Assembly (NCBI GenBank): GCA_003169895.1
Contig: PNAE01000006.1
Span: 1-64,000 of the forward strand
Direction of reading: 5' to 3'
Length of the DNA stretch: 64,000 nt
Origin: Gemmatimonadota bacterium
GTDB lineage: Bacteria; Gemmatimonadota; Gemmatimonadetes; Gemmatimonadales; GWC2-71-9
In this document: positions 1 through 19,392 of the stretch, in pieces
How the letters are laid out: every line of letters starts with the position of its first letter
How positions within the stretch are numbered: position 1 is the first letter of the stretch
The notes under the pieces: model-generated
What the model was told of the DNA's origin: nothing
The model's input: the letters and a program-made list of their open reading frames with translations, nothing else
The model's database searches: none
Made by a program: the position numbers and the translations under genes

Positions 1-2
1 GC

Positions 3-1238
3 GTCGAATTGGGGTACAGAGCAAAGTCTCTACAGGACATGGTGCAGAGACACCCGTTCCTGACACCGCTGCTTCCCTTCGTTCGCGTCAGCTCAAACCT
101 GACGGACTATGCCTTCAATAAGCTGAGTCCGCTTGGCATGCTGAGTGACAACTACAAGAAGGCAATGGCCGCTGGTGGGCCTGAAACGGCTGTCACAGCT
201 ACTCGCATGGCGGTTGGGACAACGCTCTGGGGCACTGCTGGCCTGATGGCTTACGGTGATCTCATTACCGGACGTGGCCCTACTGACCCGAAGATGCGCG
301 ACAACTGGCTACAGGATCATCAGCCCTACTCGATCAAGACTCCGAGTGGCTGGGTCTCCTATCGCCGGCTGGAGCCCTTCGCAACACCTCTCGGCTTTGC
401 CGCTGACGTGGCGAGCATCCTCCACGATCATGGCAGCGACCCGGACATAGCCAACGATGGTGGGCGGCTCATGTGGGCGCTTGCTGCATCGGCAAGCAAC
501 GCTGTGGTCAACAAGACGTACTTGAGTGGCCTGGTGAAGTTCATGGACGCTGTAGGGTCCGGCGACGGCAACAAGATGAAAGCGTTCGGAGACGGTCTAC
601 TCAGCTCTCCGATCCCGGCCGGCTTAGGTGCGATCAACACTGATCCGTACCTGCGAGATACGAAAGGCCTCTTCGACGCCCTGGTGAATAAGGTACCGGG
701 ATGGAGCAGGTCACTGCCGGCGAAGTACAACTGGGCTGGTGAGCCAATTATGGCACACCGGCAACAGCACTCGCTCAACCCGTTCGCACTGATGCCTAAC
801 AAGGGACCAGTAGCGGAAGACGATGTGGCCCAGCTCAACCGGGCGTTGACTCCTCCTCCGACAGTCGAGCGGTTCGGAAGCATCGGCGTCAATCTGAACG
901 ATCGGCACTTCCGCAATGTCGATCCCAAGGTGACGGACACGCCTTACGAGCGGATGATGGCGATTACCCGCGAGATGGATCTTCGTGGCAAGGTCACAGC
1001 CCTTCTGAACGATGACCGCTTCAAGGCTGCTGGAAGTGGCAATGCTGTCGCGCCCGGTGGCGAGAAGTGGGATGTGTTGCATACGGTGGTCTCCGCGATC
1101 CAACAGGCGGCTCGGTTCAAGATGCTTGCGGAGTATCCAGACCTTGCTCGACAACTCTACGGCCTCTCGGCCGCAAAGACAGCCGGTGCAGGTTCGACAG
1201 ATGCCAGCAACAATATCCTCCAGCAAATCGGCCACTAA
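3..1238 (+). CDS. Phage large virion-type protein, C-terminal part (5' truncated by window edge)
   Basis: The reading frame is open to the left edge, so this is the C-terminal part of a longer gene; the TTG at 9 is only an internal codon. The stretch near the start, with a TPLLPFVRVSSNLTDYA motif followed by SPLGMLSD, resembles the C-terminal large polyvalent protein-associated domain (LPD38 type) found at the end of very long phage and conjugative-element proteins; this is my recognition of the pattern and was not searched. A hydrophobic Gly/Ala segment (AVGTTLWGTAGLMAYG) follows. Base composition is lower in GC than the chromosomal genes after 4060. It is followed by a small acidic protein and a tail-fibre-like gene on the same strand, as expected for a virion module. 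Whether it is an ejection protein or a polyvalent effector cannot be decided from the fragment. Confidence 0.6.
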   Translation, partial: VELGYRAKSLQDMVQRHPFLTPLLPFVRVSSNLTDYAFNKLSPLGMLSDNYKKAMAAGGPETAVTATRMAVGTTLWGTAGLMAYGDLITGRGPTDPKMRDNWLQDHQPYSIKTPSGWVSYRRLEPFATPLGFAADVASILHDHGSDPDIANDGGRLMWALAASASNAVVNKTYLSGLVKFMDAVGSGDGNKMKAFGDGLLSSPIPAGLGAINTDPYLRDTKGLFDALVNKVPGWSRSLPAKYNWAGEPIMAHRQQHSLNPFALMPNKGPVAEDDVAQLNRALTPPPTVERFGSIGVNLNDRHFRNVDPKVTDTPYERMMAITREMDLRGKVTALLNDDRFKAAGSGNAVAPGGEKWDVLHTVVSAIQQAARFKMLAEYPDLARQLYGLSAAKTAGAGSTDASNNILQQIGH

Positions 1239-1360
1239 TAACATCTGAAGGGGTCACATCGCTGTGGCCCCTCTCAGCCTTCCCCTCACAAGTGAAGAAC
1301 CACACGGATCACCCGGTCAGACCGGGTGAAGCACCTGCATTGGTATCAGCGAGGATTGCA

Positions 1361-1459
1361 ATGCCTGAGCCAGCGCAGGACGACAGTGCAATCGTGACAG
1401 CAGGCGATGACGATGAAGTGGTCACTGCCGGCGACGATGATGAAGTGGTGACGGTCTGA
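1361..1459 (+). CDS. 32-residue acidic phage miniprotein with a tandem VTAGDDDEV repeat
   Basis: A small frame starts at ATG 1361 with GCGAGGA about 6-8 bases upstream, a good ribosome binding site, and ends with TGA one base before the next ATG. The product is very acidic and carries two copies of a VTAGDDDEV-like unit back to back, written in near-identical DNA. It lies in the 222-base gap between the large phage protein and the tail-fibre-like gene, and the tight junction suggests translational coupling. No family is recognised. It may be a short virion accessory, a chaperone-like tail or a capsid decoration peptide, but that is speculation; the gene call rests on the ribosome site, spacing and periodicity. 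Confidence 0.45.
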   Translation: MPEPAQDDSAIVTAGDDDEVVTAGDDDEVVTV

Positions 1460-1460
1460 T

Positions 1461-2453
1461 ATGGCTATCCACAAAGATGTAGTGGGCGATGAAGCCATCC
1501 ATCAGGCTGCCTACATCCAGACGGCTGATCCCGGTGCAGTTGGGGCATGGAAGTTCTGGATCGACATAACTGATCCGGCGAATCCGGTCTACAACTACCG
1601 TAACGCTGGGGATACTGCTTGGGTTGTCTTCACACCTGCTGTCGGCGCAACGCCTACCCTGGCTGCGGTCCTGGCTGTCAGTGATGATGCTTCGCTGAGT
1701 TTGATTACGGACGTACTCAATCCAGTAAGTGCTCAGGACGTGGCAACCAAGGATTATGTGGACACAGCCATTGCTGGTGTCGGCGGTGGTGGAGGTGGTG
1801 GTGGGGGTCCAGTCTTTCCGAATGACGCGCCGGCCTCACCGAGCACATACGATGATGAGTTTGAGGGTACGTCACTTGATGTGAAGTGGACGGTGGAAGC
1901 TGATCTAACTGCTACGGGGTTCGTCAAGACGTATGCCAAGCACGGCACATGGCTCTCGCTTCCCAACCCCGGTGCGTCGAGCCTCTATCAGTGGACGATC
2001 TTTCAGGCCTTGACCGGATTTACTGCGGGAACTCCCATTCAGATCGTTGCCCGTTTTGCCTTTACCAAATGGGAAAGCTTTTCTGGCGGGGTAGAGTTTG
2101 GTATTCAGACAACTACACCCTATCAGACGGGCTCCTTCATCTCGGTCGGCATCCGGCGCATCAGCGACAAGACCAACGAGATCTACACATGGGACGGTGC
2201 GTTCAGTAGTACGAACCTGCCGGATTTCTGCGGGATGGTGTACGTAATGCTTGACCGGAACGCGAGCGACAACACCCGTCTCATGTTCTCACTTGATGGG
2301 ATCGGTTGGCAACTCTTGAGTAAGACGACTCGTTCGTGGACCGCAGCTGACCTGTATGTCAGCCTCTATGGGGCGTCGAGTTCTGGGCATCCTTGTGAGC
2401 CGATGATCGACTTCATCCGCGTCAACGATGCACGGTTCGCGTTGCCCGCGTAA
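1461..2453 (+). CDS. Phage tail-fibre-like protein with glycine hinge and jelly-roll-like C-terminus
   Basis: 330 residues. The N-terminal part (about 1-105) ends in DPVSAQDVATKDYVDTAI-type sequence (here NPVSAQDVATKDYVDTAI); the VATKDYVD motif is common in phage tail-fibre and tail-collar proteins. A run of nine glycines near residues 107-116 forms a flexible hinge. The C-terminal half (from YDDEFEGTSLDVKWTVE, about residue 133) looks like a LamG or jelly-roll type beta-sandwich, rich in aromatic and polar residues, the kind of module that binds a carbohydrate receptor. No signal peptide is present. It starts one base after the acidic miniprotein and is followed by a small unknown on the same strand. 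Receptor binding is inferred from domain order, not shown. Confidence 0.6.
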   Translation: MAIHKDVVGDEAIHQAAYIQTADPGAVGAWKFWIDITDPANPVYNYRNAGDTAWVVFTPAVGATPTLAAVLAVSDDASLSLITDVLNPVSAQDVATKDYVDTAIAGVGGGGGGGGGPVFPNDAPASPSTYDDEFEGTSLDVKWTVEADLTATGFVKTYAKHGTWLSLPNPGASSLYQWTIFQALTGFTAGTPIQIVARFAFTKWESFSGGVEFGIQTTTPYQTGSFISVGIRRISDKTNEIYTWDGAFSSTNLPDFCGMVYVMLDRNASDNTRLMFSLDGIGWQLLSKTTRSWTAADLYVSLYGASSSGHPCEPMIDFIRVNDARFALPA

Positions 2454-2518
2454 GTGGTATAGCTGGTTGTTCCTGCCGGTAAGCAGCACAGAGGGGCTTG
2501 GCGAGCGTACATTAGCGT

Positions 2519-2806
2519 ATGTCTTCCAAGCCCCATCTCGCTGACTTCAACATTGCAGGCAAAGCAGTTCGAGACGATGCCGGGGTCATACACTCGGCAC
2601 CGTTTGATGATTCGATGTATCCGGATCTTAGCCACGCCGGGATCATGCTTCAGGCGCAGAATGGTGGGGCAACGTTTGATAACTTCGTGTCAGAGGATGA
2701 TCGAGGTTGGGTACTGAAGGATGGCACGTACCTGCGGAGTGGGGATGTGGACGAAGGGCCGGGTGCGATCGACAGCACGAATAGTCAGGCCCCTCCCGCC
2801 CTGTAG
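2519..2806 (+). CDS. Small phage-region protein of unknown function
   Basis: 95 residues, acidic, with no membrane segment or signal peptide. It follows the tail-fibre-like gene on the same strand after 65 bases and overlaps the converging minus-strand gene by about 22 bases at the 3' end. A purine-rich GGCGAG lies about 14 bases upstream of ATG 2519, a weak ribosome site. The central part (MYPDLSHAGIMLQAQNGGATF) is not recognised. It could be a tail-fibre assembly or adsorption accessory by position only. Confidence 0.45.
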   Translation: MSSKPHLADFNIAGKAVRDDAGVIHSAPFDDSMYPDLSHAGIMLQAQNGGATFDNFVSEDDRGWVLKDGTYLRSGDVDEGPGAIDSTNSQAPPAL

Positions 2807-3276
2807 ACCTTGAGCCCGGCAGCCACCTGTGCGTCAAACTCGACCGGCAGCACGATCATTTCTTCATCGAACTGAGCAGTGTGCCCCGGCTGGTGAGCCA
2901 ACGCAATGTTTCGGGCAGCCTCCCGGACCTGCTCGGGACTAAGCGCGTCTACGCCACCAGCCTTACCTATCAATTCAAGCGCGCGACCGATTGCGTCAAC
3001 ACGCTCATCCGGGACCAGATACATCAGGCGCGTGTATGCGTTCCGGTAAAGCCGAACTTCGTCCTCCGAGACCCACCCGTTCGCTCGTCTAACTATCGCC
3101 ACGACAACTAGCGCCGTCTTCACCGCGTCCTTGCCTTCCGGCAGACTGCTTTCCCTTAGAAAGGGATTGGCGGTTTGTGCTTCCAAGAGCGAGGCATAGC
3201 GAGCCACGATTTCGTCAGCGACGGGAAACGCTGCGTCGAGAGACGTGCGTGACAGGGAGTCGGTCTGGTGAGCCAT
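2785..3276 (-). CDS. Unknown protein at the prophage end
   Basis: About 163 residues when started at MAHQTDSLSR (ATG at 3276, with a GGTGGC purine stretch upstream); an upstream in-frame start would add 36 residues rich in Trp and Pro that look non-coding. The protein is mostly helical, with a hydrophobic helix (VKTALVVVAIVRRANGW) and no clear catalytic motif. It converges on the 95-residue phage gene. Minus-strand genes next to an integration junction in prophages are often lysogeny or cargo genes, but no function is evident here. Confidence 0.4.
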   Translation of the reverse strand: MAHQTDSLSRTSLDAAFPVADEIVARYASLLEAQTANPFLRESSLPEGKDAVKTALVVVAIVRRANGWVSEDEVRLYRNAYTRLMYLVPDERVDAIGRALELIGKAGGVDALSPEQVREAARNIALAHQPGHTAQFDEEMIVLPVEFDAQVAAGLKVYRAGGA

Positions 3277-3476
3277 GAGCCACCAGTCTACTGAAAGATC
3301 GGCGGGACCGGGAGGTGGCTGGCGGTGGAGAGCAGCCCAGCCTTCATCCCAGCCGCAGTCCCACCATGAGAAGTATGGGGTCACGCGGGGAACGGTAGGA
3401 GAGCAGGATCAACGGAGGATCAACAGCCGGCATGGCTCATCAGCTTGGGTCACTTCTCGGTTCCGTCATAGCCATT

Positions 3477-3869
3477 TCAATGACTCGGCACTTGCGTACC
3501 TAGAATCGTTGGAAGGAACCAGAGCACGGCGAAGTACCCGAGAACGAGCACCCAAACGACCATGATCCGCCGTATCGACACAGCGTCTTGCTCTTGTCCC
3601 GTAATCATCCAGCCAACGTGGCTAAGGGGCTCGTTTGCTTGTGCTTTCAGGCTCTCATCTAGCGTGTGGATCACTGAGCGCATTCGGCCGAGTCTGAACA
3701 GAATCGTTCCACCTGAATACAAGGTGACGATGGTGCCGAGAGCGCCTGCGAGCTTGCGGTAGCCAAGAGGATACCTGTAGGCCACGACAGCCAGTGCCGA
3801 AACCGCCGTCACAATGAGTGTAACGACCAGGGTCTCAGTGGATCGACGCGACAGGTGCAGGTCTGGCAT
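3477..3869 (-). CDS. Small integral membrane protein next to the prophage junction
   Basis: About 130 residues from MPDLHLSRRS (ATG 3869, GGAAC about 8 bases upstream); a GTG at 3950 would extend it by 27 residues. Three hydrophobic stretches are visible: TLVVTLIVTAVSALAVVAY, a weaker one around LAGALGTIVTLYSGG, and IMVVWVLVLGYFAVLWFLP near the C-terminus. The polar loop between them carries a RMRSVIHTLDESLKAQ helix. It is the last gene of the phage-like segment before the comM junction and is read in the same direction as comM. Cargo or superinfection-exclusion roles are possible for such proteins; none can be assigned. Confidence 0.45.
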   Translation of the reverse strand: MPDLHLSRRSTETLVVTLIVTAVSALAVVAYRYPLGYRKLAGALGTIVTLYSGGTILFRLGRMRSVIHTLDESLKAQANEPLSHVGWMITGQEQDAVSIRRIMVVWVLVLGYFAVLWFLPTILGTQVPSH

Positions 3870-4054
3870 GGGTTCCAGTTGGATACCTACCGCAGAAGTA
3901 TGCCACGAAGTGATCGAGTTCACCAGAACTTCGCCAAAATTTTGCAGCACTTATGTCCAGAGCCTACCGCAATCGTGGCTGTGGGCTCTACCCCCCGGTG
4001 CCCGGTGCGGCCTGGCCGATTCCTGGCGTGGCTCCGGACACCCATTCGGCTTAT

Positions 4055-4066
4055 CCGCCACAACAT
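4055..4066. other. Junction between the phage-like element and comM
   Basis: On the minus strand the comM frame reads AAAGAHNVLM and then leaves the family sequence at about 4060-4063, where homologues continue with the Walker A motif GPPGAGKT. Past this point the frame encodes unrelated Arg/Gly-rich residues and stops at 3920. The break coincides with the change from chromosomal to phage-like gene content. The other end of the element and the attachment repeat lie outside the window, so the mechanism (site-specific recombinase or transposition) cannot be read. Confidence 0.6.
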
Positions 4067-4720
4067 GAGGACGTTGTGGGCGCCGGCCGCGGCGACCTCG
4101 AGCGCCCGCTTCGCCGCCGATTGCGCCTTTACGTCCGCAAAATCGACGTCGCCCACCGGCACCTCGCGCATCAGCGCGGTCGCATCGGTGCGCACCGCGC
4201 ACAGTTCGGGGCCGCCAGACAGGTGCTGGCACACCGCCGCCAGCGTCGCAGCGCCGCGCACCGCGATTCCATCGACGACCGCGGCCTCGGCGACATTGGC
4301 CTCCGGAAGGATCAGTGCATCGCATTCCATCGCGCGCGCGGCGAGCGCAATCGGCAAGGCGCCACGAATCGGACGCAGGTCGCCTTCGAGCCCGAGTTCT
4401 CCAAGAAACAACGTGCGCGACACCCGGTCGTGGGGGATCTGTCCGCTCGCGACCAGAATCCCGATGGCGATGGGCAGGTCGAATGCGCTGCCGCGCTTCG
4501 GCACGTCGGCCGGCGCGAGGTTGACGGTGATGCGTCGCAGCGGCAGTTGGTAACCCGAGTTGCCGAGCGCCGCCGCGACGCGTTCGCGCCCTTCCTTGAC
4601 CGCGCCGAGTGGCAGGCCGACCGTCGTGAACGACGGCAGGCCATTGGCGATGTCGATCTCGACGTCGACGGCCAGCGCGTCAACACCGACGACGGCAGCG
4701 GACCGGATGCGGGCAAGCAG
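4061..4720 (-). pseudogene. comM: comM (YifB family AAA+ helicase), truncated before Walker A
   Basis: The first about 220 residues match the N-terminal Lon-protease-like domain of ComM/YifB: VVGVDALAVDVEIDIANGLPSF, GLPLGAVKEGRERV, LAPADVPKRGSAFDLPIA and LFLGELGLEGDLRPIRGALP are all in place. The protein should then enter the AAA+ domain; instead similarity stops right after HNVLM, so the Walker A, Walker B and C-terminal zinc-like region are missing. ComM is known as the branch-migration helicase of natural transformation, so loss of the ATPase should abolish that role. The start is probably CTG 4720 (giving the conserved MLARIRS, with GAGG 7 bases upstream); TTG 4771 is the longer alternative. 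The remaining 3' part presumably lies beyond the element, left of the window. Confidence 0.8.
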
Positions 4721-4825
4721 AAGCGACCTCGGCGGCGGAGTCGCGTGGATGCTGATCGTGCGCCGCGACAATGCCGGTTCGTTCGAGCGCAGAAGGTGAT
4801 CGTGGGACGCGGCATGAACAGGAGC

Positions 4826-4914
4826 GTAAGAGGTGAAACGTCAGAGGTGAAAAGGATGATCCGACGCACCTTTCACCGTTCACCTTTCACCTTTCACCCT
4901 TCTCCGTTCACCGG
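4826..4914. repeat. Heptamer inverted-arm repeat, locus A
   Basis: Left arm begins GTAAGAGGTGAAACG and continues in GTGAAAA-type 7-base units; after a short centre the right arm runs CACCTTT/CACCGTT units for about 45 bases. The arms are roughly complementary and would fold into a long imperfect hairpin. It lies immediately 3' of the minus-strand lipoprotein gene, where a terminator would be expected, although there is no T-run. Confidence 0.7.
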
Positions 4915-4927
4915 TCATGTCTCGCCC

Positions 4928-5476
4928 CTACGGCAGCGCGATCCCGAACACCGCCAGCCACTGGCGCGCGCTGTCAATCAACTGGGTTTCCTTCGCCATG
5001 ACCAGTTGCTGATCGACGTCGGTCCGCGGCTGCAGCGTCCCGTCGGTCCACAGGACAATCCGGCCGGCGTCAAACGCGTACACGTCGGCGACCTGCTGTA
5101 GCACCGCAACGTCGCCACCGAGGAACCAGATGTCGGTTTCGCCGCTCCCCGGTCCGTTGCCGCCCGAATCGGCCACCACCAGCTTCCGGACCACGCCCTC
5201 CTGCAGCCAGGCAGCGAGGTGCCGCGGTTGCGAGTCGGCCACTGGCGGCAGCGTGGTGTCACGCTCGGTCATCTGCGGGAGTCCTGCATCGATCTGCTGC
5301 ATGGTCTGCCGCATCATCGCAATGACCCCGGCGGTGTCGCCAGGAGCGAGATCGGAGAACTGTGCCGGTGCGGCACCAGCGGTGGGCGCTACAGCATCAC
5401 CGGGTGCCGAAGACGGTTTGGAACCGTTCCGGCACCCGGCGACGAGGATTGCAAGCAACGCGAGCCGGCGAATCAG
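4928..5476 (-). CDS. Putative lipoprotein of unknown function
   Basis: 182 residues if started at CTG 5476, which gives MIRRLALLAILVAGC, a complete lipoprotein signal with LVAGC lipobox; the TTG at 5458 leaves only eight residues before the Cys and is too short. The CTG overlaps the upstream stop as CTGA, which suggests translational coupling. A Pro/Ala-rich linker follows the Cys, then a compact domain with QQIDAGLPQMTERDTTLP and VLQQVADVYAFDAGRIVLWTDG. No family is recognised. It sits downstream of a small LTXXQ-like periplasmic protein and a giant sensor kinase on the same strand, so an envelope-stress link is possible but unproven. Confidence 0.6.
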   Translation of the reverse strand: MIRRLALLAILVAGCRNGSKPSSAPGDAVAPTAGAAPAQFSDLAPGDTAGVIAMMRQTMQQIDAGLPQMTERDTTLPPVADSQPRHLAAWLQEGVVRKLVVADSGGNGPGSGETDIWFLGGDVAVLQQVADVYAFDAGRIVLWTDGTLQPRTDVDQQLVMAKETQLIDSARQWLAVFGIALP

Positions 5477-5871
5477 TTACCGCCGCCGGGGCCGCGTCCC
5501 CCCATGCGCGCCGCACGGGCGGCCTGCACGGAATCGAACTTGGCGATCTGCGGGCCGGCGAGCAACGCCTTGAAGTCGGCGTTGAACTTGGCCATCGCGT
5601 CGCTGACCTTCTTGCCCGAATCGGCGTTCCTGGCCTCGCCCGCCTGCCGCTGCGCCATCATCCACGCGCTGGTAGCAGCGGTGTTGTCAGTGTAGATCTT
5701 GATCAGGCCTGTGGTCTTCGTCTTCTGGTCCGCCGACAGGCTGTACATCGCCGTCAGCGTATCGACGTTCATCATCCGGTTGCCACGCATACCCATCATG
5801 CCACCACCCTGCGCGGCCAACGGCGCCGCGCAGACCACTGCCACTGCAAGCATTGCGAAACGTGCCTTCAT
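5473..5871 (-). CDS. Small secreted protein, Spy/CpxP (LTXXQ)-like
   Basis: 132 residues from ATG 5871 (GGAG about 10 bases upstream); a longer frame upstream lacks coding character. The N-terminus MKARFAMLAVAVVCAAPLAAQ is a clear signal peptide with cleavage after Ala-Gln. The mature part starts with a Met/Gly-rich stretch (GGGMMGMRGNRMM) and continues as a helical hairpin containing LSADQKTKTTGLI, similar in pattern to LTXXQ motifs of Spy/CpxP/ZraP-type periplasmic chaperone or metal-sensing proteins. It ends in Gly-rich GRGPGGGN. The Met/Gly-rich segment could bind metal. The family assignment is by pattern only. It lies 117 bases downstream of the sensor kinase gene. Confidence 0.5.
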   Translation of the reverse strand: MKARFAMLAVAVVCAAPLAAQGGGMMGMRGNRMMNVDTLTAMYSLSADQKTKTTGLIKIYTDNTAATSAWMMAQRQAGEARNADSGKKVSDAMAKFNADFKALLAGPQIAKFDSVQAARAARMGGRGPGGGN

Positions 5872-5988
5872 GATGAAAACTCCGGCGCTCAGGTTGACCC
5901 GCTGTGAGGGGCCAGAATGGGCTCCCACGGGCTCGATACAGTTACGCCCCCGGGAGACGCCCGGTTGAACCGGGAGGTACACGCCAGG

Positions 5989-8900
5989 CTACCCGCCAGG
6001 CACGAACCGGATGGTGAAAACCGCCCCTTGGCCCGGTTCGCTCTCGACGCCAACGGTCGCGTCCCACCCCTCCACCAGGCGTCGGACGATCGCCAGGCCC
6101 AGCCCGGTTCCGCTGGTGTTGGTGGAAAAGGACGGCTCGAAAATACGCCCGAACTGGTCCGGCGGAATTCCCCTCCCGTCGTCCTCCACCCGTAGCGTAT
6201 AGCCGCTCAGCACCAAGCGGACCAGTGACGCCTCGGCCTGGCGCGCGTTGTCGAGCAAATTCAGCAGCACCTGCACGAGTTCCTCGCGCCGGGCACACAC
6301 CGGACCGATAGCGTCACCAATGACTTCGATTCGCGGCCGCTCCGCACCCAACGCAAACAATGACGCCAGCTCGTTGGCCGCCGGCAGGAGCGCAATCGAC
6401 TCGAGCGGCGTGGCATGCTCGGGCGGTGCGCCGTAGCGCGCGAACGAACGGGCGATGCGGTCCAGCCGTTCGATCTCCGCGAGCAGGCGCTCGGCCGTCT
6501 CGTCCACCAGTTGCGGATAGTTCGGCAACTTGTCCGCCTGCACGCGACGCAGGTGCTGCAGTCCAAGGCGCATGGGTGTGAGCGGATTCTTGATTTCGTG
6601 GGCCACCTGCCGCGCCATCTCGCCCCAGGCGAGTATGCGTGCGGCGCGCGATGCCTCGGTGATGTCGGTGATCGCCAGGACCAGTCCGCCGTCGCCAAGT
6701 GGCGCAAGCGTCACGGCAAACCGCTGCTCGCCCAGCCGCAATTCGCGCGTCTCGGGTGCGTGCGCCGCCTGACCGAGCACGCGTTCGATGCCTTCGACGA
6801 CGCGACGCCAGCCTTCCGGCAACTGCGTGGCGAGTTCCTTGCCGACGGTGATCGCTCGTCCGAGCAACTCACTCGCACGCGGATTGGCGTGGATCACGTC
6901 GCCATTGACATCGACCCCGATCACCCCGGTAGCCACGGTCGACAGGATCGCCGCGGTGCGCGCGCGGCCCGTGCGCAGTTCCGCTTCCGTCTTGCGAAGA
7001 TCGGCCTCCATCTGGGTGATGGCGCCGAACACCGGCACGAACTCCGCCGGAACGTCGGTTGGCTGGGGTGGCGGCTCGTGCCGCCCGATCGCCACCGCCG
7101 TGCGGCGCAGGGTTTCGATTGGCCGTCCGAGCGCCCGCGCGATGACACCGGCCACCATCACCGACGCCACGATGCCGCCCAGCGCCGCCAGCAGCAACCG
7201 CAACGCCTGATCGACCTGCTCGCGAGCGAACCCGGTGTCGCCGCCGGGAATCGCCGCCACCAATAGCGTGCCCGACGGCGTGGCGTCGATCACGCCAAGG
7301 CGCAGGTCCGCGGTCGGCAGTGGTGGCGTCATCGTCGCGCGATCGGAACCGGCGTTGACTTGGCGGCTCCGCTCGACGACTGCCGGGAGATAGCCGAGCT
7401 CGGCGAGCATGGAATCACTTGCGGCGATCAGCCGCCCTTGCCGGTAGATCCCGATCTCGGCGTTGGCGCTGTCGGCAATGAAGGCGAGCGCGGAGCCCCC
7501 TGGCTTCGGCGATTCGGCCACGGCCAATCCGCCCGCGTCTTCCACCAGTCGCAGCGTCGCCGCCAGCTCCGCCGCGTGCTCCTGCGCGGCATCCTGCCGC
7601 AACCGATCCCACGATGAGAGCGTAAAGAGGGTCGCCGGCACGATGAAGAACGCCATTAGCGCCGTGGTGACCGTCCGACGGTACGACCGTCGAAACACTT
7701 CCGCTCGCAGGGTATGCTGCTGGCCAAGAATGCGCTGCAATAACAGCCACGCCCCGAGGATCAGACCGATATCAAGCAGCACGCTCAGGGCCGCCCGAAC
7801 CACGAACGAGCGCGGTGGAGAGATCGCGACGGTCGCGCGCACGGTGCGCCGGACGTCGCCAGCCGTGATCACCCGATCGGCAAATACGAACCGGCGCTGC
7901 CGGTGAAAGGCGCCGTCCGGGAACTGACCTGCGTCGCCCACGACCTCGACCGTGTACGGCGGGTCGCTCGATGGCGCGCGCCAGCCAGCGATCAGGCCGA
8001 AGGTGGTCGGCGCCAGCAACCGGGAGCGGGGACCGACGGTCACGGTGGCGATCGTGTCGGGAGCCAGTGGCAGCACCAGAACTTCGTGATGCCCCACACC
8101 ACGCGGTCCGCCGATACGCCTGGGTTCCGAGCCGGCAAAGCGAACCAGCGGCGCGAGTTCGTCCCAGCTGATGCTGAGCGAGTCGAGCGCGACCAGCTCG
8201 CGCTGCTGACCGTCACCATTCCACAATGCGAGATAGGTCGGTACCCCTTCCCGTGCCAGCGATGACGCGCTCCACGCCGCATACAGCCGGTCCATGCGGG
8301 TCGCATGCGCCACCTGTGCCGCAACGGCAAAGCGGTCAAGTGCGTTCGCGGCCGCCGTATCGGATTGGGCGTCGAGTCGCGTGAGATCCGCGCGTGCCAG
8401 GTCGATCCGGCGATCGAGTGAGGTGCCCCACGTCGCCAGCGACGCGAGGACGCCAGCCGTCGTCGCCAGTGCGAGCAGTCGGGTGCGGGGCGTCGTGAGC
8501 GGCAACAGCAATGCGATCGGAATCAGCCAAAGCGGCCGATACCACCACGCCCACCCGCCGGGAGTCCACGCTTCGATGCCAATCAGACCAATGAGGAGCG
8601 CCGCGCCGGTGGCGAGGAGACCCCATGTCGCACCGGCGCTTTCGTCACCGGGGGCGCGCAGAGGAGCGGTCGCGACCGCCAGGAAGCCGCCCGCCATGAG
8701 CGCGATGATCGCTTCCCACCCAAAGCCGGCGACGAGCGACAGCACCTCGCCCCGTGGCATCACCACTCGAGCGACCACGACCGCCAACGGCGGGGCAGTG
8801 CCGAGCAGCAGGACCGCCGCGACGAGTCCGACAACGCTGCGCCGGGCGGGCCGTCGCCAGAGCAGGATCGCCAGTAGCAGCAACGCGGCGGCGCCGAGGA

Positions 8901-9888
8901 GCGCGCGGATCGCTGTCAGGGCGAACTGCGTGCTGGCCACGTCCGATCGCGCCAGGGCCCACAGCGGCAAGAGGATGGCGCCGACGCGAGCCGCGGGGTG
9001 CGACGCGGTCAGCAGGATCACCAGCGCCAGCGCGACCAGTCCGGCGCCCACCAACAAGCGGGCAACTCCCTGTTCGCGGGCAACGAAGCTGCCTGGCGGC
9101 GGCGGGACCGGCTGCATGGCCGCCATGACGCCGGCGGTAGCGGCCTCGGTGCTGGCATACTCAATGGGGCGTCCGAGCGGAGTGCCGGCCTGCCAGGTCC
9201 AGCGTACGCCCTGCCACCCGCCGGCGCTCGCCGCGAGTGACGGGCCTGCGACCGGAAGCCCTGGCAGCGAATCCAGTAGCAAGACAACCTGCGCCTGTCT
9301 GCCGTTGCGAGTCGCGCGGATTACCAGCATTCGGGCAAATGGCGTACTGACCAGCGCCGCCGGCGTGCTGCGCATCACCGGTTGAATGCGATGCGGCCCT
9401 GCGACCGCGATGACGGTATCGCCGGCGATCACTGCGATTGCGCTCTCGATGTTGATCGTGCTGAGGAGGTATCCGAGCCCCGGTGCGGTCTGCGGCGGAC
9501 TGCGTCCGACGCGGTCCAGCGCTACCGTCGCCGTGCGGTTGGCGGACGCGATCGACGACTGCAGCAGCTTGTCGCGTTCCCGGGTTGCGTCCCGGACGGC
9601 CTCGCTCTGCAGGACGCCGGCGTGGAACACGGCGTGCCCCATCCGGGCGGCGGCGATGCCGCTGGCGACCGCGAGCAATGCGAGCCCGGCAGCAAGACCC
9701 CGCTCGCCTGTTCCTTGCTGCGCCTTGGCGACGAGCGCGAGGCCGGCGGCCACCATGGCGACCATGGCGAGCCAGACCCAGGTTCCCTGCAGCGCGGCCT
9801 CGCCAGCCACGAGCACTGTCACGCCGACGCCCAACCAGAGCATCAGCCGGGGACTGGGCGCGGTCGATGTAGCACCTTGAAACTTCAT
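5989..9888 (-). CDS. Giant NtrY-type membrane sensor histidine kinase
   Basis: 1299 residues. Three hydrophobic segments occupy residues about 15-95, a periplasmic loop follows, and a block of seven to eight more segments lies around 270-480. A soluble sensor region of about 200 residues, two further membrane segments, a second extracytoplasmic stretch and a last segment leading into HAMP (ARALGRPIETLRRTAVAIGRHE) come next. Then follow a PAS domain (ILSTVATGVIGVDVNGDVIHANPRASELLG), HisKA with the phospho-acceptor in ARQVAHEIKNPLTPMRL (His about 1097), and HATPase with LLNLLDNARQAEA, VEDDGRGIP and GTGLGLAIVRRLVEG. The H-box form HEIKNPLTP is that of NtrY/NtrB kinases. No response regulator gene is adjacent in the window. 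It is divergent from the tolC operon with a gap of only 55 bases, so the promoters must overlap. The family's usual length is about 700-750 residues. Confidence 0.85.
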   Translation of the reverse strand: MKFQGATSTAPSPRLMLWLGVGVTVLVAGEAALQGTWVWLAMVAMVAAGLALVAKAQQGTGERGLAAGLALLAVASGIAAARMGHAVFHAGVLQSEAVRDATRERDKLLQSSIASANRTATVALDRVGRSPPQTAPGLGYLLSTINIESAIAVIAGDTVIAVAGPHRIQPVMRSTPAALVSTPFARMLVIRATRNGRQAQVVLLLDSLPGLPVAGPSLAASAGGWQGVRWTWQAGTPLGRPIEYASTEAATAGVMAAMQPVPPPPGSFVAREQGVARLLVGAGLVALALVILLTASHPAARVGAILLPLWALARSDVASTQFALTAIRALLGAAALLLLAILLWRRPARRSVVGLVAAVLLLGTAPPLAVVVARVVMPRGEVLSLVAGFGWEAIIALMAGGFLAVATAPLRAPGDESAGATWGLLATGAALLIGLIGIEAWTPGGWAWWYRPLWLIPIALLLPLTTPRTRLLALATTAGVLASLATWGTSLDRRIDLARADLTRLDAQSDTAAANALDRFAVAAQVAHATRMDRLYAAWSASSLAREGVPTYLALWNGDGQQRELVALDSLSISWDELAPLVRFAGSEPRRIGGPRGVGHHEVLVLPLAPDTIATVTVGPRSRLLAPTTFGLIAGWRAPSSDPPYTVEVVGDAGQFPDGAFHRQRRFVFADRVITAGDVRRTVRATVAISPPRSFVVRAALSVLLDIGLILGAWLLLQRILGQQHTLRAEVFRRSYRRTVTTALMAFFIVPATLFTLSSWDRLRQDAAQEHAAELAATLRLVEDAGGLAVAESPKPGGSALAFIADSANAEIGIYRQGRLIAASDSMLAELGYLPAVVERSRQVNAGSDRATMTPPLPTADLRLGVIDATPSGTLLVAAIPGGDTGFAREQVDQALRLLLAALGGIVASVMVAGVIARALGRPIETLRRTAVAIGRHEPPPQPTDVPAEFVPVFGAITQMEADLRKTEAELRTGRARTAAILSTVATGVIGVDVNGDVIHANPRASELLGRAITVGKELATQLPEGWRRVVEGIERVLGQAAHAPETRELRLGEQRFAVTLAPLGDGGLVLAITDITEASRAARILAWGEMARQVAHEIKNPLTPMRLGLQHLRRVQADKLPNYPQLVDETAERLLAEIERLDRIARSFARYGAPPEHATPLESIALLPAANELASLFALGAERPRIEVIGDAIGPVCARREELVQVLLNLLDNARQAEASLVRLVLSGYTLRVEDDGRGIPPDQFGRIFEPSFSTNTSGTGLGLAIVRRLVEGWDATVGVESEPGQGAVFTIRFVPGG

Positions 9889-9943
9889 CGCCCCGGGACC
9901 GTAGAAGGCAATGTCAGAACCTCAAATACCTGAAGGACGGAAC

Positions 9944-11470
9944 ATGCTCGCTCGCCGCGTGGCTGGTGCCCTGATCGTGCTCTCACTCGCTGTCCTCCCC
10001 GCGTCGGCGCAGGGACCAGTCAGAGTGCCCCGGCAGCTGTCGCTCGCCCAGGCCCTGGAATTGTCCAAGCAGAACAATCCAACGTACCGACAGGCGCAGG
10101 CCAACGCCGACCCGGCGGCCGAAGCGGTCAAGGCGGCCCAGTGGGCCCAACTGCCGACGCTCAATGTGTTCTCCGGCATGAGTTATACCGGTGCCGGCAG
10201 CTCGACGTTCGGTGGCACGACGTTCAATCAGACGTCACCGAGCGTCTCGTCGAGCTACAGCTTCTCGGCAAACTGGCAACTCAACACGCGCAACTTCCTG
10301 ACGCCGTCCATTCAACGGGCCCAGGAACGCGCCACCGTGGAGAATATCGCGGCCGCCGGCGTCACACTGGTGTCCGATGTCACTTCACAATACCTGAACA
10401 CCCTGCGCGCCGCGGCGGTGGTCGGTGTGGCGGTGCAGCAGGTGACCCGCGACACGGCATTCCTCACGCTCGCCCGCGCGCGCCAGCAGGTCGGCCAGGC
10501 GTCACTCATCGACGTACTGCAGGCGCAAACCGCCATGGCAACCGCCCAGGTGCAGCTGCTGCAAGCGCTGCAGGGTGAGTCCCAGGCGAAGATCGAGCTG
10601 GTCCGGCGCCTCGGGCTGCCCGCCGACGTGGACGTTGATTCATTGCAGTTGGTCGAACCGTTCCCGTTGGTCGAGCCGAAGTTCGACCTGCAGGCTCTGC
10701 GGACGCTCGCCCATGAGTCGAATCCGACGCTCCGCTCGTTGCAGGAGCAACAGCGGGCCGACCACATCAGCGTCAAGGCGGCCCGCCTGGATCGCCTGCC
10801 GACGTTCTCGATCAGTACCGGCCTGAGCGGGTACACCCAGCAATTCACCAACGAAAGCATCCTGCTCAACAACCGGTTGCTCGGTGCGCAGGCCACCGAG
10901 GCGAACTGCGCGTTCCAGAACGAGATCCTCATGGGGCTCACGACGCCGATTCCCGGCGGCATCATCGCCGACTGCAAGGCATACGCTGGGCTCGACGCGA
11001 CCGGCAACGCCCTGCAGCCCAGCATCTCGCAGGCGATCCACAACGGCAACAGCGTCTTCCCGTTCAGTTTCACCCGCCAGCCGTTGTCGGTCAGCTTGGG
11101 AATCAGCCTGCCGATCTGGGATGCCTACACCCGGTCGTTGGGAATCTCGCGGGCTGAAGCCCTCGAGGACCAGGCGCGGGAAGGGGTGCGGGCGCAGCAG
11201 CTGGCGACCGACGCGCAGATCCAATCGCAGCTGCTGGCGGTGCGCACCGCATGGCTGCGGACCCAGATCCAGGACACCAACCGGGTCGCGGCGCGGCAGC
11301 AACTGCAGTTGGCGCAGGATCGGTATCGGATCGGCAACGGGACGGGACTGGAAATCGCCGATGCGCAAAACGCCGTGACGCAGGCGGAAGCTGACTACGT
11401 TACGGCCGTGTACGACTATCACCTCGCTGTCGTCGGCCTGGAAGCCGCCGTCGGCCGACCCCTACGCTGA
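9944..11470 (+). CDS. TolC-family outer membrane efflux protein
   Basis: 508 residues from ATG 9944, which has AAGGACGG about 4 bases upstream and gives a clean signal peptide MLARRVAGALIVLSLAVLPASAQ. The body carries the two TolC/OEP repeats: LSLAQALELSKQNNPTYRQAQAN opens the first and FDLQALRTLAHESNPTLRSLQEQQ the second, with long coiled-coil helices (LARARQQVGQASLIDVLQAQTAMATAQVQLLQ; DRYRIGNGTGLEIADAQNAV). An insert with two Cys (EANCAFQ and IADCKAYAG) lies in the second repeat and may form a disulfide loop. It begins an operon with a MacA-like adaptor, a MacB-type ATPase and four permeases, and would supply the outer membrane channel. Confidence 0.9.
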   Translation: MLARRVAGALIVLSLAVLPASAQGPVRVPRQLSLAQALELSKQNNPTYRQAQANADPAAEAVKAAQWAQLPTLNVFSGMSYTGAGSSTFGGTTFNQTSPSVSSSYSFSANWQLNTRNFLTPSIQRAQERATVENIAAAGVTLVSDVTSQYLNTLRAAAVVGVAVQQVTRDTAFLTLARARQQVGQASLIDVLQAQTAMATAQVQLLQALQGESQAKIELVRRLGLPADVDVDSLQLVEPFPLVEPKFDLQALRTLAHESNPTLRSLQEQQRADHISVKAARLDRLPTFSISTGLSGYTQQFTNESILLNNRLLGAQATEANCAFQNEILMGLTTPIPGGIIADCKAYAGLDATGNALQPSISQAIHNGNSVFPFSFTRQPLSVSLGISLPIWDAYTRSLGISRAEALEDQAREGVRAQQLATDAQIQSQLLAVRTAWLRTQIQDTNRVAARQQLQLAQDRYRIGNGTGLEIADAQNAVTQAEADYVTAVYDYHLAVVGLEAAVGRPLR

Positions 11471-11484
11471 GAGGATCGAACCGG

Positions 11485-12768
11485 ATGTCGCGTGGAGCAA
11501 AGATCGGAGTGGCCCTCGTCATAGTCATCGCCGTCATCGTCGGGGTGGTGGCGCTCGGCTCCGCCCGCAAGGCGAACCGCCCGACGGCGGTACGTCTTGA
11601 GCAGGTCGGCAAGCGCGACCTGGTGGCGGCGGTCACCGCCAGCGGCCAGGTCGAAGCCAAGACGGACGTCGATATCTCGTCCGAGGTGACGGCCCGGATC
11701 CTCAAGCTCCATGTCAAGGAAGGCGACATGGTCAAGGTTGGCGAATTGCTGGTGGAACTCGACCAGGCACAATTCAAGGGAGCGGTGGAACGCGGCCAGG
11801 CGTCGCTGGCGCAGGCCAATGCCGGCGAGGTGCAGGCGACGGCGAACCGCGACCAGGCACAACGGGCCTTCGACCGGCAGACCGAGCTGAAGCGGACGTC
11901 ACCCAATCTGGTGACCGACGAGTCGGTCGAATTGGCCCGCCAGGCGTTCCTGGTGGCGGATGCGAACGTCAAGTCGGCCGCCGCGCTGGTGGAGCAGGCG
12001 AAGGCCGGACTCAAGGAGGCGCAGGACAACCTCGCGCGCACGATGCTCTACTCACCGATCGCCGGACGCGTGGTCCGGCTCGCGGTCGAGGAGGGTGAAG
12101 TCGCCGTACCGGGCACGTTCTCGAAGGAAACCGGCCTGCTGATGCGCATCGCCGACATGTCGACCATTCTCGCCAAGGTCAAGGTCGACGAAACCGACGT
12201 GGTGCGCCTGGCGCTGAACGATTCGGTGTCGGTGTCGATCGACGCATTCCCCGACACGACGTTCGTCGGACGTGTCACCAAGATCGGGAACAGCGCGACG
12301 GCGGCAACCACGGCCGCCACGAGCACCGACAAGGCGGTCGACTTCGACGTCGAGGTCACGCTGGCCAACCCGCCCAACGACGTCCGGCCGGACCTGAGCA
12401 TGACGGCGCGCATTGTCACCGACGTGCGCAAGAACGCGCTCAGCATCCCGATCATTGCGCTGACGGCGCGCGCGGCCCCGAACCCGGCGTCCGATACGAA
12501 AGCCGCGACGCCGCTCGCGGCCAGCCCGACCGACACATTGAAAAAGCCGACCAAGGAGCAGGACGGTGTGTTCGTGGTGCAGAACAACATCGCCCGCTTC
12601 CGGCCGGTCAAGGTCGGCATCACGGGCGACGAATACTTCGAAGTGGTGGACGGCCTCAAGGCCGGCGAGACCGTGGTGGCCGGCACCTACCAGGCGATTC
12701 GTGACATGAAGGACTCCACGAGGGTAAAGGCCGCACCGACCGTTGGACCGGAAGTCAAGAAGCCATGA
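11485..12768 (+). CDS. MacA/HlyD-type periplasmic adaptor of the export system
   Basis: 427 residues. An N-terminal membrane anchor ([19 protein letters not shown]) is followed by the biotinyl-lipoyl half-motif ([26 protein letters not shown]), a coiled-coil hairpin from about residue 90 to 185 ([27 protein letters not shown]... [23 protein letters not shown]), the second lipoyl half and beta-barrel regions, and a membrane-proximal domain at the C-terminus ([28 protein letters not shown]). A low-complexity insert rich in Ala, Pro and Thr lies near residues 330-355. The stop overlaps the ATG of the ATPase gene by 4 bases. It should bridge the inner-membrane permeases and TolC. Confidence 0.88.
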
Positions 12769-13478
12769 CGGACGTGATCATCAAGCTGGAGGGGATCACT
12801 CGCGACTACATGATGGGAGCCGAACAGGTTCGGGCGCTGCGCGGTGTGGATCTCGAGATCCGCCGCAACGAATACGTTGCCATCATGGGCCCGTCGGGAT
12901 CGGGAAAGTCCACCATCATGAACATGCTGGGCTGTCTCGATACGCCGAGCGCCGGGCGGTACTGGCTCAATGGGCACGAAGTATCGCGGATGAAGGACGA
13001 CGACCTGGCGCGCATCCGCAACCGCGAGATCGGCTTCGTATTCCAGACATTCAACCTGCTGCCCCGCGCCTCGGCGCTGGCGAACGTCGAACTGCCGCTG
13101 GTCTACGCCGGCATCTCCGGTCGCGACCGCCGGCGGCGCGCCGAGACGGCGCTGCACCGCGTGGGGCTGGGCGAGCGGATGCATCACAAGCCCAATGAGC
13201 TGTCCGGCGGCCAGCGGCAGCGCGTGGCGATCGCCCGGGCACTGGTGAACGAGCCGTCGATCCTGCTCGCCGACGAACCGACCGGCAACCTCGACTCCAC
13301 GACCAGTGAAGAGATCATGCGGGTGTTCGGCGCGCTGCACGCACAGGGGCAGACGGTGGTGCTGGTGACGCACGAGCCCGAGATCGCGACGCACGCCCAT
13401 CGCGTCGTGGTCCTGCGCGACGGCCGCGTCGACAGCGACCGGGCCACCCCGCCGCGCGCGACGGGAGTGGCTGCGTAG
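12765..13478 (+). CDS. MacB-type ABC transporter ATP-binding protein
   Basis: 237 residues, standard length for a LolD/MacB-type nucleotide-binding protein. Walker A (GPSGSGKST), Q-loop ([21 protein letters not shown]), signature ([17 protein letters not shown]), Walker B with catalytic Glu ([13 protein letters not shown]) and the switch His ([19 protein letters not shown]) are all present. It overlaps the adaptor gene by ATGA and is followed after one base by the first permease. It is the only ATPase in the cluster, so it presumably energises all four downstream permeases. Confidence 0.93.
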
Positions 13479-13479
13479 C

Positions 13480-14721
13480 ATGCCGTTTTTCGAGGCGGTC
13501 ATCCTGGCGCTGTCGTCGATCCGCGCGCAGAAGCTCAAGAGCTTCTTCTCGCTGGTCGGCGTCCTGATCGGCGTCACGTTCCTGATCGCGGTCGTGTCGA
13601 TCGTTCAGGGAATGAACGTATACATGACCGACAAGTTCGCCGATGCGATGGGCGGGATCAACACATTCCAGTTGCAGTCGCGGCCGGGGATGACCTTCGG
13701 TAACGTGACCGAGGCGATGTGGAAGGAATGGCAACGGCGGCCGCGCATCACCATCGAGGATGCGGCGTACGTCGAGGCACGGGTCACCACTCCCGCCCGC
13801 TTTTCCCGCGAGAGCGGGACCAGCGCGGGGGTCGGCTACCACGGCAAGATGGCGACCGGAATCGACGTGTTTACGGTCGACGCCGAGTTTTTCCGGATCA
13901 AGAACTGGAACATTGCTGATGGCCGCGCCTTCTCGCCGCAGGAGGTCACCGCCGGGGCGTCGGTCGTAGTACTGGGCGGGGAACTCGCGGACCGCCTGTT
14001 CGACGGCGCGGAACCGGTGGGCAAGACGGTGACGATCGGCGGATTGCCGCACCGGGTCATCGGAGTGGTCGAGAAGCAGGGCACGCTGTTCGGGATTTCC
14101 CTCGACAAGTTCGCGGTCACCCCGATCACCTCACCGGCGCGCCTGCTCACCAACCGACCGCACGTCATCGACGATCTCCAGGTCCAGGCGATCGACCCGG
14201 CCACGATGCCGGCGGCCGTGGAGGAGGTCACCACGCTGATGCGGGTGCGCCGCGGCCTCAAGCCCAACGAAACAGCCAACTTCAACATTGCCACGGCGCA
14301 GGATGCGCTGGACCAGTGGGGCAAGATCTCGAGAATCCTGTTCCTGGCGCTCCCCGGCCTGGTGGGCATCTCGCTCGTGGTCGGCGGCATCGTGATCATG
14401 AACATCATGCTGATGTCGGTAGTCGAACGCACCCGCGAGATCGGGATCCGCAAGGCGCTGGGCGCGCGCGGACGCGACATCATGGCGCAGTTCGTGGTCG
14501 AGTCGGCCACGCTGTCATTCACCGGCGCCGCGATCGGCATTGCGACCGGCCTGCTGCTCGCCTTTGCCGTGCGCGCACTGACGCCGCTTCCGGCGGCCGT
14601 TGCCCCCTGGTCGATCGGGCTGGCCGTCGGACTCGGCATTCTCGTGGGGGTGGTTGCCGGTGTGTATCCGGCGCGGCAGGCATCGCGGCTCGACCCGATC
14701 GCCGCACTGGGGCACGAATGA
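13480..14721 (+). CDS. MacB/FtsX-type permease A1
   Basis: 413 residues with the usual topology: one N-terminal membrane helix ([24 protein letters not shown]), a periplasmic MacB core domain of about 230 residues, then three C-terminal helices around the FtsX motif ([35 protein letters not shown]). The hinge before the last helices carries [25 protein letters not shown]. The sequence is more like the third permease of this cluster than the second or fourth (shared QGMN, TDxF/LxDAMxGxNxFQ). The stop overlaps the start of the next gene as ATGA, which indicates coupled translation with partner B1. Confidence 0.9.
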
Positions 14722-15968
14722 GCGCCCTCGGACGCGGCAACGTGTTCGCCCGCGGCTGGGAAGGCGTCACCCTGGCGATCGACGCCGTCCGCGCGAACAA
14801 GACCCGGGCCGCGCTCACGATCCTCGGCATCGCCATCGGGGTCATGGTCGTCATCGCGATGGCGTCGACGATCACCGGGATCCAGAACTCGGTCAGCGAG
14901 GTCGTCTCGCGGGCCGGCCCGAAGTCATTCTATGTGATGCGGGCCTTCCGCACCGGCATCCAGTTCGACAACGAGAACGCCCCCTGGCGAAAGCGCCCGC
15001 GGATGACCCGCGACGAGGCTGAGATGATCCGGCGGCTTCCGGGCATCGGCGACGTGAACGTGATGGAGGGCGGCAGCTCAGCGGTCAGCTACCGCAGCAC
15101 CAATCTCAGCAGCGTGAGCGTCACCGGAATGGACATCAGCTGGCTCAAGGTGGGTGGCGGCGTGCTGCTCGAAGGGCGCAACTTCACGCCGGTGGAGGGC
15201 GCCGCCGCGGCGTTCGTGGTCGTGCTCAACGACAAGGCGGCCGAACTGCTCGTGCCCGGCGTCGACCCGATCGGCAAGATCATCAAGATCTTTGGACTGC
15301 CCTTCACGGTCGTCGGACTGTATCAGGATCCATCGGGACTGTTCAGCCAGAGTTCACCCAGGTTCGTGATCCCGCACACGACGTTCGTCAAGAGCGCGGA
15401 CTTCGAGCGCGGGTTCATGCAGATCGTCGTCTTCCCGCGGGACGATGTCTCGCAGCCCGAGGCGATGGACGAGGTGACGTCGGCGCTGCGCATCCGGCGC
15501 GGACTCAAGCCCGGTGACGACAACAACTTCGACCTCGTTGCCGGCGAGAAATTCCTGGAGAGCTTCAACAGCATGACGCAGGGGTTCTTCCTGGTGATGC
15601 TGGCGCTGTCCAGCGTCGGGCTGATGGTCGGTGGTGTCGGCGTTGTCGCGATCATGATGATTTCGGTCACCGAGCGCACCCGTGAGATCGGCGTGCGCAA
15701 GGCGCTGGGTGCAACCCGGGGCGAGATCCTGTTCCAGTTCCTGGTGGAGGCGGCCACGCTGACGTTGATCGGCGGGATCTGCGGCATGCTCCTGGGCGCC
15801 GCGATCGCCTATGCCGTGAACCACTTCACGCCCATCCCGGCGGCGATTCCGCTCTGGTCGGTCATCGCCGCCATCGCCGCGTCGGCGGTCACCGGAATTT
15901 TCTTCGGTCTCTATCCGGCCAACAAGGCGGCGAGCCTGGATCCCGTGGAAGCGTTGCGATATGAGTAG
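14718..15968 (+). CDS. MacB/FtsX-type permease B1
   Basis: 416 residues from ATG 14718, overlapping the stop of A1 by 4 bases. N-terminal helix LTILGIAIGVMVVIAMASTITGIQNSV, periplasmic core with SFYVMRAFRTGIQFDNENAPWRKRP, then FtsX helices (LMVGGVGVVAIMMISVTERTREIGVRKALGATRGEILFQF). It ends in VEALRYE followed directly by a heptamer repeat element. It resembles the fourth permease (EGV..A..A.R..K.R.ALT.LG..IGV; SFYV/TFYVIR.F), so A1-B1 and A2-B2 look like copies of one heteromeric pair. Confidence 0.9.
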   Translation: MSALGRGNVFARGWEGVTLAIDAVRANKTRAALTILGIAIGVMVVIAMASTITGIQNSVSEVVSRAGPKSFYVMRAFRTGIQFDNENAPWRKRPRMTRDEAEMIRRLPGIGDVNVMEGGSSAVSYRSTNLSSVSVTGMDISWLKVGGGVLLEGRNFTPVEGAAAAFVVVLNDKAAELLVPGVDPIGKIIKIFGLPFTVVGLYQDPSGLFSQSSPRFVIPHTTFVKSADFERGFMQIVVFPRDDVSQPEAMDEVTSALRIRRGLKPGDDNNFDLVAGEKFLESFNSMTQGFFLVMLALSSVGLMVGGVGVVAIMMISVTERTREIGVRKALGATRGEILFQFLVEAATLTLIGGICGMLLGAAIAYAVNHFTPIPAAIPLWSVIAAIAASAVTGIFFGLYPANKAASLDPVEALRYE

Positions 15969-15973
15969 ATACG

Positions 15974-16056
15974 CGTAAGAGGTGAGACGTAAGACGTAAA
16001 ACGGGCGCTCGGAGTCATGCGGCGTCATGTTTCACGTTTCACGTTTCACGTCTAAC
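15974..16056. repeat. Heptamer inverted-arm repeat, locus B
   Basis: Left arm starts GTAAGAGGTGAGACG and continues with GTAAGAC and GTAAAAC units; the right arm is TTTCACG repeated three times and ends GTCTAAC. The element fills the gap between permease B1 and permease A2, within an otherwise continuous operon, and its arms could form a hairpin that modulates read-through into the second permease pair. Confidence 0.75.
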
Positions 16057-16065
16057 TTCTTGCGC

Positions 16066-17310: not shown

Positions 17311-17313
17311 CAT

Positions 17314-18561: not shown

Positions 18562-18636
18562 GTGAGAGGTGAAAGGTGAGAGGGAGCGGCTTGCCGTGGC
18601 GAGCGCCCCTCTCACGTCTGACCTCTCACCTCTTAC
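18562..18636. repeat. Heptamer inverted-arm repeat, locus C
   Basis: Starts on the base after the TAG of permease B2: GTGAGAG, GTGAAAG, GTGAGAG units, a GC-rich centre, then CTCACGTCTGACCTCTCACC and a terminal TCTTAC. The arms are complementary. It separates the export operon from the deacetylase gene, whose ATG lies eight bases later, so it also occupies that gene's leader. Confidence 0.75.
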
Positions 18637-18644
18637 TTTCCAGC

Positions 18645-19361: not shown

Positions 19362-19392
19362 GCGTTGTCATCCCCCCAGCTAGATTTCACCG

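Follow-up and report, generated by a model that had tools for sequence, protein, structure and literature searches.

The window analyzed here comprises bases 1–64,000 of contig C6 (184,242 bp), which belongs to the genome under study, G000 (3.42 Mb in 13 contigs designated C1–C13, 98.2% complete). Its left end holds (i) a contig break with a repeat resembling the end of an insertion sequence (IS), (ii) a phage segment, and (iii) the N-terminal half of comM, the DNA-uptake helicase gene. The individual features are as follows.

1–23, plus strand: putative outward end of an IS3-like element, with its terminal repeat, at the contig break; further copies of the repeat on C13, C1, and C8
3–1238, plus strand: T7-like internal virion protein truncated at the contig end, with the C-terminal 411 aa present; phrog_6651, 6e-37
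1461–2453, plus strand: tail-fiber-like protein, 330 aa, a tentative assignment; phrog_26630, 2e-4 over 26 residues only
2519–2806, plus strand: 95-aa open reading frame (ORF) without a Pfam or PHROGs match
2785–3384, minus strand: 199-aa ORF without a Pfam, PHROGs, or PADLOC match
3477–3950, minus strand: 157-aa ORF beside attL, without a Pfam, PHROGs, PADLOC, or NCBIfam match; hydrophobic stretches visible by eye
4068–4075, minus strand: predicted attL core AACGTCCT, phage to the left and comM to the right; read from both junctions
4061–4771, minus strand: N-terminal half of comM, ending HNVLM; ChlI profile, 2.8e-45

PADLOC assigned a defense gene to 0 of the 8 element ORFs. The GC content is 0.56–0.59 in window bases 1–4000 vs 0.62–0.70 in the remaining window, which, together with the phrog_6651 match, bears out the claim of a preliminary description of this DNA, made from the sequence alone, that the region left of the break has phage content and a lower GC.

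The frame of comM passes HNVLM (window 4061) into foreign DNA and stops at 3920 (ORF 3920–4771). By tblastn, the half on C6 corresponds to residues 12–231 of the intact ComM of a congener (reference G084), and the alignment ends at window 4061, in agreement with the earlier claim that the N-terminal part reads normally to HNVLM and then breaks at about 4060, before the Walker A motif. The C-terminal half and a matching direct repeat, both anticipated at the far end of the element, were found as well. The former is present on another contig of the same genome, at C13 9364–10260 (Mg_chelatase and Mg_chelatase_C profiles at 9364–10230), where it adjoins phage genes, starts at HNVLLIGPPGAGKT, and runs to the gene end; the latter is AACGTCCT, common to both junctions. 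The C13 half aligns by tblastn to residues 226–518 of the G084 protein and, given the spans of the two alignments, no residue is lost between the halves. The break itself lies just before GPPGAGKT (Walker A). Since the first listed start codon in the C13 half, the ATG at 9406, lies just past GPPGAGKT, Walker A would be untranslated unless a start exists upstream. Profile searches of the contigs found no second or intact comM in the G000 assembly; an intact copy elsewhere in the genome is what the preliminary description had named as evidence against an insertion. The nearest named contig by comM is JACDBX010000040.1 (82%), from a MAG labelled Gemmatimonadales, and the host is taken to belong to this order.

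Outward from comM, C13 carries small ORFs, then a large serine recombinase, and then a T7-type RNA polymerase. Its GC content is 0.57–0.61 in bases 1–9000 vs 0.63–0.69 in 9001–20000.

C13 7526–5859, minus strand: large serine recombinase (integrase), 555 aa; phrog_95, 3.7e-72; about 1.8 kb from attR

Large serine recombinases combine Resolvase, Recombinase, and zinc ribbon domains in ~450–700 aa, and the 555-aa integrase contains, in order, the Pfam domains PF00239 (Resolvase), PF07508 (Recombinase), and PF13408 (Zn_ribbon_recom). The nearest solved structure is that of the SPbeta integrase, and the searches made found no close relative with a known site. The RNA polymerase is of the single-subunit T7 type (phrog_414, 2e-206; T7 RNAP in the PDB, 4e-95). 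The integrase stop overlaps the polymerase start as ATGA, with both frames intact. On the same contig, a 212-aa phage ORF (L010 1244–1882, G000:C13, minus strand) weakly matches the end of a head-assembly family (E 0.0016, 24 residues).

The partner of the attL core AACGTCCT, the predicted attR core, lies at C13 9367–9374, and the identical stretch at the two junctions is 8 bp only. Large serine integrases recombine imperfectly palindromic sites. When the phage-side flanks are joined, the resulting predicted attP has a palindrome of 13/22 positions centered in the core, a score reached by 112 of 20000 shuffles; the corresponding attB palindrome is near chance (2616/20000), and the two are jointly reached by 87/20000.

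The phage ends of C6 and C13 are treated as one prophage because both have the same first-listed phage record among the matches listed (MW202733.1; 31.4% for the internal virion protein and 38.2% for the polymerase) and because of the orientation of their genes, and the two contigs probably adjoin the same element. MW202733.1 is Podoviridae sp. ctgrD200, a circular genome of 45,384 bp from freshwater (Manatee Spring). On the joined chromosome, the named phage genes are collinear and run in one direction from attR to attL: integrase, polymerase, a gap, virion protein, and tail fiber-like protein. An internal virion protein and a one-direction gene order, both hallmarks used here for T7-like membership, are thus present; since the middle of the prophage is missing, it is designated a T7-like remnant and not classified as a member of the Autographiviridae. 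A comparison of the two phage pieces for shared promoter-like words gave 88 20-mer pairs with at least 16 matches vs 26–57 in five mononucleotide shuffles; the result was set aside, as a single short repeat accounts, through overlapping windows, for many of the highest-ranking pairs.

A near-identical sequence of ~16–22 bp opens both C6 and C13, closes C1, and recurs twice inside C8, and the genes adjoining the C8 copies encode rve_3 and HTH_Tnp_1 domains. The repeat at the contig ends would thus fit the end of an IS3-type element, although no target-site duplication was seen by eye across the C6 and C13 ends. A phage DNA polymerase query of the assembly returned only a 30% match, a 994-aa frame on C8 of the size of a host polymerase; a portal family search of the assembly gave no match, but its control matched nowhere either. 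With IS3-like ends on both contigs and the phage DNA polymerase not found, the prophage has probably been cut down; an IS-linked loss of its middle is the most economical account. The small contigs C3, C7, and C10 were considered as the missing phage middle and rejected, since their GC content and ORFs, judged by eye, are unlike those of the phage. Two other sequences of 20–32 bp are shared among several of the ends of C2, C3, C5, C7, C8, C11, and C12, so that more repeated elements probably cause assembly breaks in G000.

Comparison with the intact gene of close relatives, the check proposed in the preliminary description, was made within the genus: 7 of 10 same-genus genomes (G076, G077, G079, G080, G081, G083, and G084) read across the comM site uninterrupted, while, among the matches listed, G000 has two partial comM matches, G082 one weaker match, and G078 none. 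The comM C-terminal domain occurs in 89/102 genomes of the family. In G082, the N-half is 80% identical to that of G000 and follows the family as far as GAHNVLM; from about 6953 of locus L273 (G082:C179), it diverges, with CACAACGTCCTGATG followed by other DNA, i.e., at the same codon as the G000 break. The last 408 bases of this contig have a GC content of 0.574 vs 0.658 upstream; they show only chance-level similarity to the G000 phage by tblastx and blastn, and the G000 integrase has no match in the G082 genome. The C-terminal part of the G082 gene lies on a different contig (L274, G082:C140, 2479–2970), adjoining an HTH gene, and does not begin until residue 358, so the G082 comM has also lost sequence. 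These findings suggest that the site before Walker A is recurrent in the genus and has been used by other DNA in G082. Second, partial comM 3′ ends also occur in another genus (L074, G027:C94, 6464–6946; L073, G026:C72, 1374–1904), where they adjoin a 320-aa gene that appears inositol oxygenase-like by eye; considered as instances of the same insertion, they were rejected because they look like partial duplications.

The locus is very probably explained by a temperate T7-like podovirus that integrated in comM by its own large serine integrase and was later hit by an IS. The 555-aa protein is the presumptive agent of the insertion and would have recombined a site on the phage with the codons of comM that immediately precede Walker A, with AACGTCCT as the core. 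The products would be attL (comM N-half/phage, on C6) and attR (phage/comM C-half, on C13) with no comM sequence lost, and the prophage would be arranged with integrase and RNA polymerase as an overlapping pair near attR and virion genes read towards attL. An IS3-like element may subsequently have struck the prophage, whose middle, with the replication genes and most head genes, is probably missing or, alternatively, would be flanked by IS copies and absent from the 13 contigs. What remains of ComM would be an ATPase-less N-fragment and a C-half that lacks a start codon ahead of Walker A, with ComM function lost unless the element excises.

That the phage ends were instead misjoined to comM on both C6 and C13, i.e., that an assembly or binning chimera hides an intact chromosomal gene, is extremely unlikely. 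The break region is indeed near contig ends on both sides, but such an artifact needs two independent false joins, both falling on the same 8 bp of comM, with both halves complete; moreover, the phage pieces derive from the same kind of phage and fall into one collinear order, an intact comM was not found in the assembly, and the comM of G082 breaks at that codon too, next to different DNA. An island or satellite with some phage genes, brought by a transposon-type system as in Acinetobacter, would account for the many small ORFs without assignment and for the unseen phage middle. This is very unlikely given that a T7-type polymerase, an internal virion protein, and an integrase occur in T7-like order, that no transposition or target-selector domain was found among the ORFs given to Pfam, and that the site is at Walker A, whereas Tn6022 and Tsy use Walker B.

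It is possible, if rather unlikely, that the prophage is complete and active, with a middle of ~25–30 kb (by MW202733) left unassembled or unbinned between two IS copies, and that its excision restores comM. Both junctions and the integrase and polymerase frames are intact, and, should the genome be a MAG, a contig of low GC content could have been lost from it. However, the phage DNA polymerase query gave only the host-sized polymerase frame, the IS-like end truncates the virion protein, and the genome completeness is 98%.

Integration of a T7-like phage by a serine integrase has several partial counterparts, which are compared here on the basis of portions of the respective papers. In the part of Durrant et al. 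2022 (PMC10083194) used here, magnesium chelatase/ATP-dependent protease homologues, a name read by us as YifB/ComM (cf. TIGR00368), are the targets of 12.4% of predicted site-specific large serine recombinases, and the enzymes are reported to prefer this gene family. There, likewise, a serine integrase is associated with a break in a YifB/ComM-type gene; that set consists of mined large serine recombinases in general, and the part used here mentions neither a T7-like phage nor the codons before Walker A, as seen in G000. In the sr1WO group of Wolbachia phage WO, as described in the available portion of PMC9203015, a prophage with a large serine recombinase splits the magnesium chelatase gene, the halves of which flank it. 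The arrangement is alike in G000, while the phage type and the host phylum differ. According to Faure et al. 2023 (PMC10293859), Tn6022 (AbaR type) and Tsy use TnsF to enter comM at Walker B; they share with the G000 element the interruption of comM at a conserved ATPase motif. They differ from it in employing TnsF with Tn7-type or tyrosine recombinase machinery at Walker B instead of a serine integrase before Walker A. The G000 break does not lie at the Walker B position of Tn6022/AbaR or Tsy, and no TnsF, TnsABC/TniQ, or Tsy recombinase was found among the element ORFs run against Pfam, a set from which the element middle is missing. The insertion in G000 thus apparently followed a different route from those in Acinetobacter. 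The preliminary description had regarded the locus as a notable convergence with Acinetobacter: a phage-derived element does interrupt comM in an unrelated lineage, but such a case is not new in view of the excerpts of Durrant et al. 2022 and of the phage WO work, and the entry of phages or serine integrases into the comM gene family is already known.

Temperate T7-like phages whose integrase lies by the polymerase are also known, such as LUZ100, Pasto, and HTVC019P (PMC10134795, in part). These phages, MW202733.1, and the G000 prophage all have an integrase gene close to that of a T7-type RNA polymerase; the MW202733 integrase is tyrosine-type, whereas that of G000 is a large serine integrase directly abutting the polymerase. 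The integrases of LUZ100, Pasto, and HTVC019P are tyrosine-type. Within the phylum, the G000 polymerase is matched in 1 of 395 genomes, G000 itself, and the integrase in 7, the six others being weak or partial with a best match of 51% over 145 residues (G048). The latter is a serine recombinase fragment (L085, G048:C258, 2683–3183), and no comM C-terminal domain was found in G048. Neither integrase relatives in viral_contigs and genome_contigs nor the RNA polymerase as a single-sequence query in viral_contigs gave a confirmed match. Among the phage records, 140/50,697 match the integrase and 2572/50,697 the polymerase. In IMG/VR, 448 loci were confirmed, and among the best 80 of these, which carry the nearest polymerases, the G000 integrase was matched in 0/80 by tblastn and the MW202733 tyrosine integrase in 9/80; as only 44/80 loci have at least 2 kb upstream and a single tblastn query is of low sensitivity, this is weak evidence of rarity. 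Literature searches on serine integrases in Autographiviridae or T7-like phages returned no description of the combination in titles and the starts of abstracts. The pairing of a T7-like phage with a large serine integrase looks new, as do the location of the insertion site immediately ahead of Walker A and the fact that the genus has apparently seen it used again.

Interruption of comM has been discussed as a means by which mobile elements keep the host from using transformation to cure them; conserved ATPase codons have been discussed as a landing site that occurs in many hosts. PMC11472951 describes a study in which 22% of Acinetobacter baumannii strains had comM inactivated by AbaR and other elements; according to the same paper, loss of ComM lowers but does not abolish transformation in Acinetobacter. 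Prophages at competence loci and the conflict over curing in pneumococcus are treated in PMC12637031. Loss of transformation through the broken comM, expected in the preliminary description, is a plausible outcome in G000. With a T7-like phage, a serine integrase, an unrelated phylum, and a different comM motif, the locus represents another independent case of comM interruption, and the break in G082 at the same codon by other DNA points to a recurrent site in the genus. A more far-reaching and distinctly doubtful proposal would be that Gemmatimonadota harbor a separate temperate T7-like lineage in which a large serine integrase replaces the usual tyrosine enzyme, which attaches at the codons before ComM Walker A, a site reused by unrelated elements in the genus, and whose lysogens, having lost ComM, can far less readily be cured of the element by transformation.

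The DNA downstream of the C-half on C13 has no clear synteny with congeners. The neighborhood upstream of comM on C6 is as in G083, G084, and G077, and just upstream of the gene, at window 4867–4922, lies a short run of direct repeats, each 14 bases long and of the TTTCACC type.
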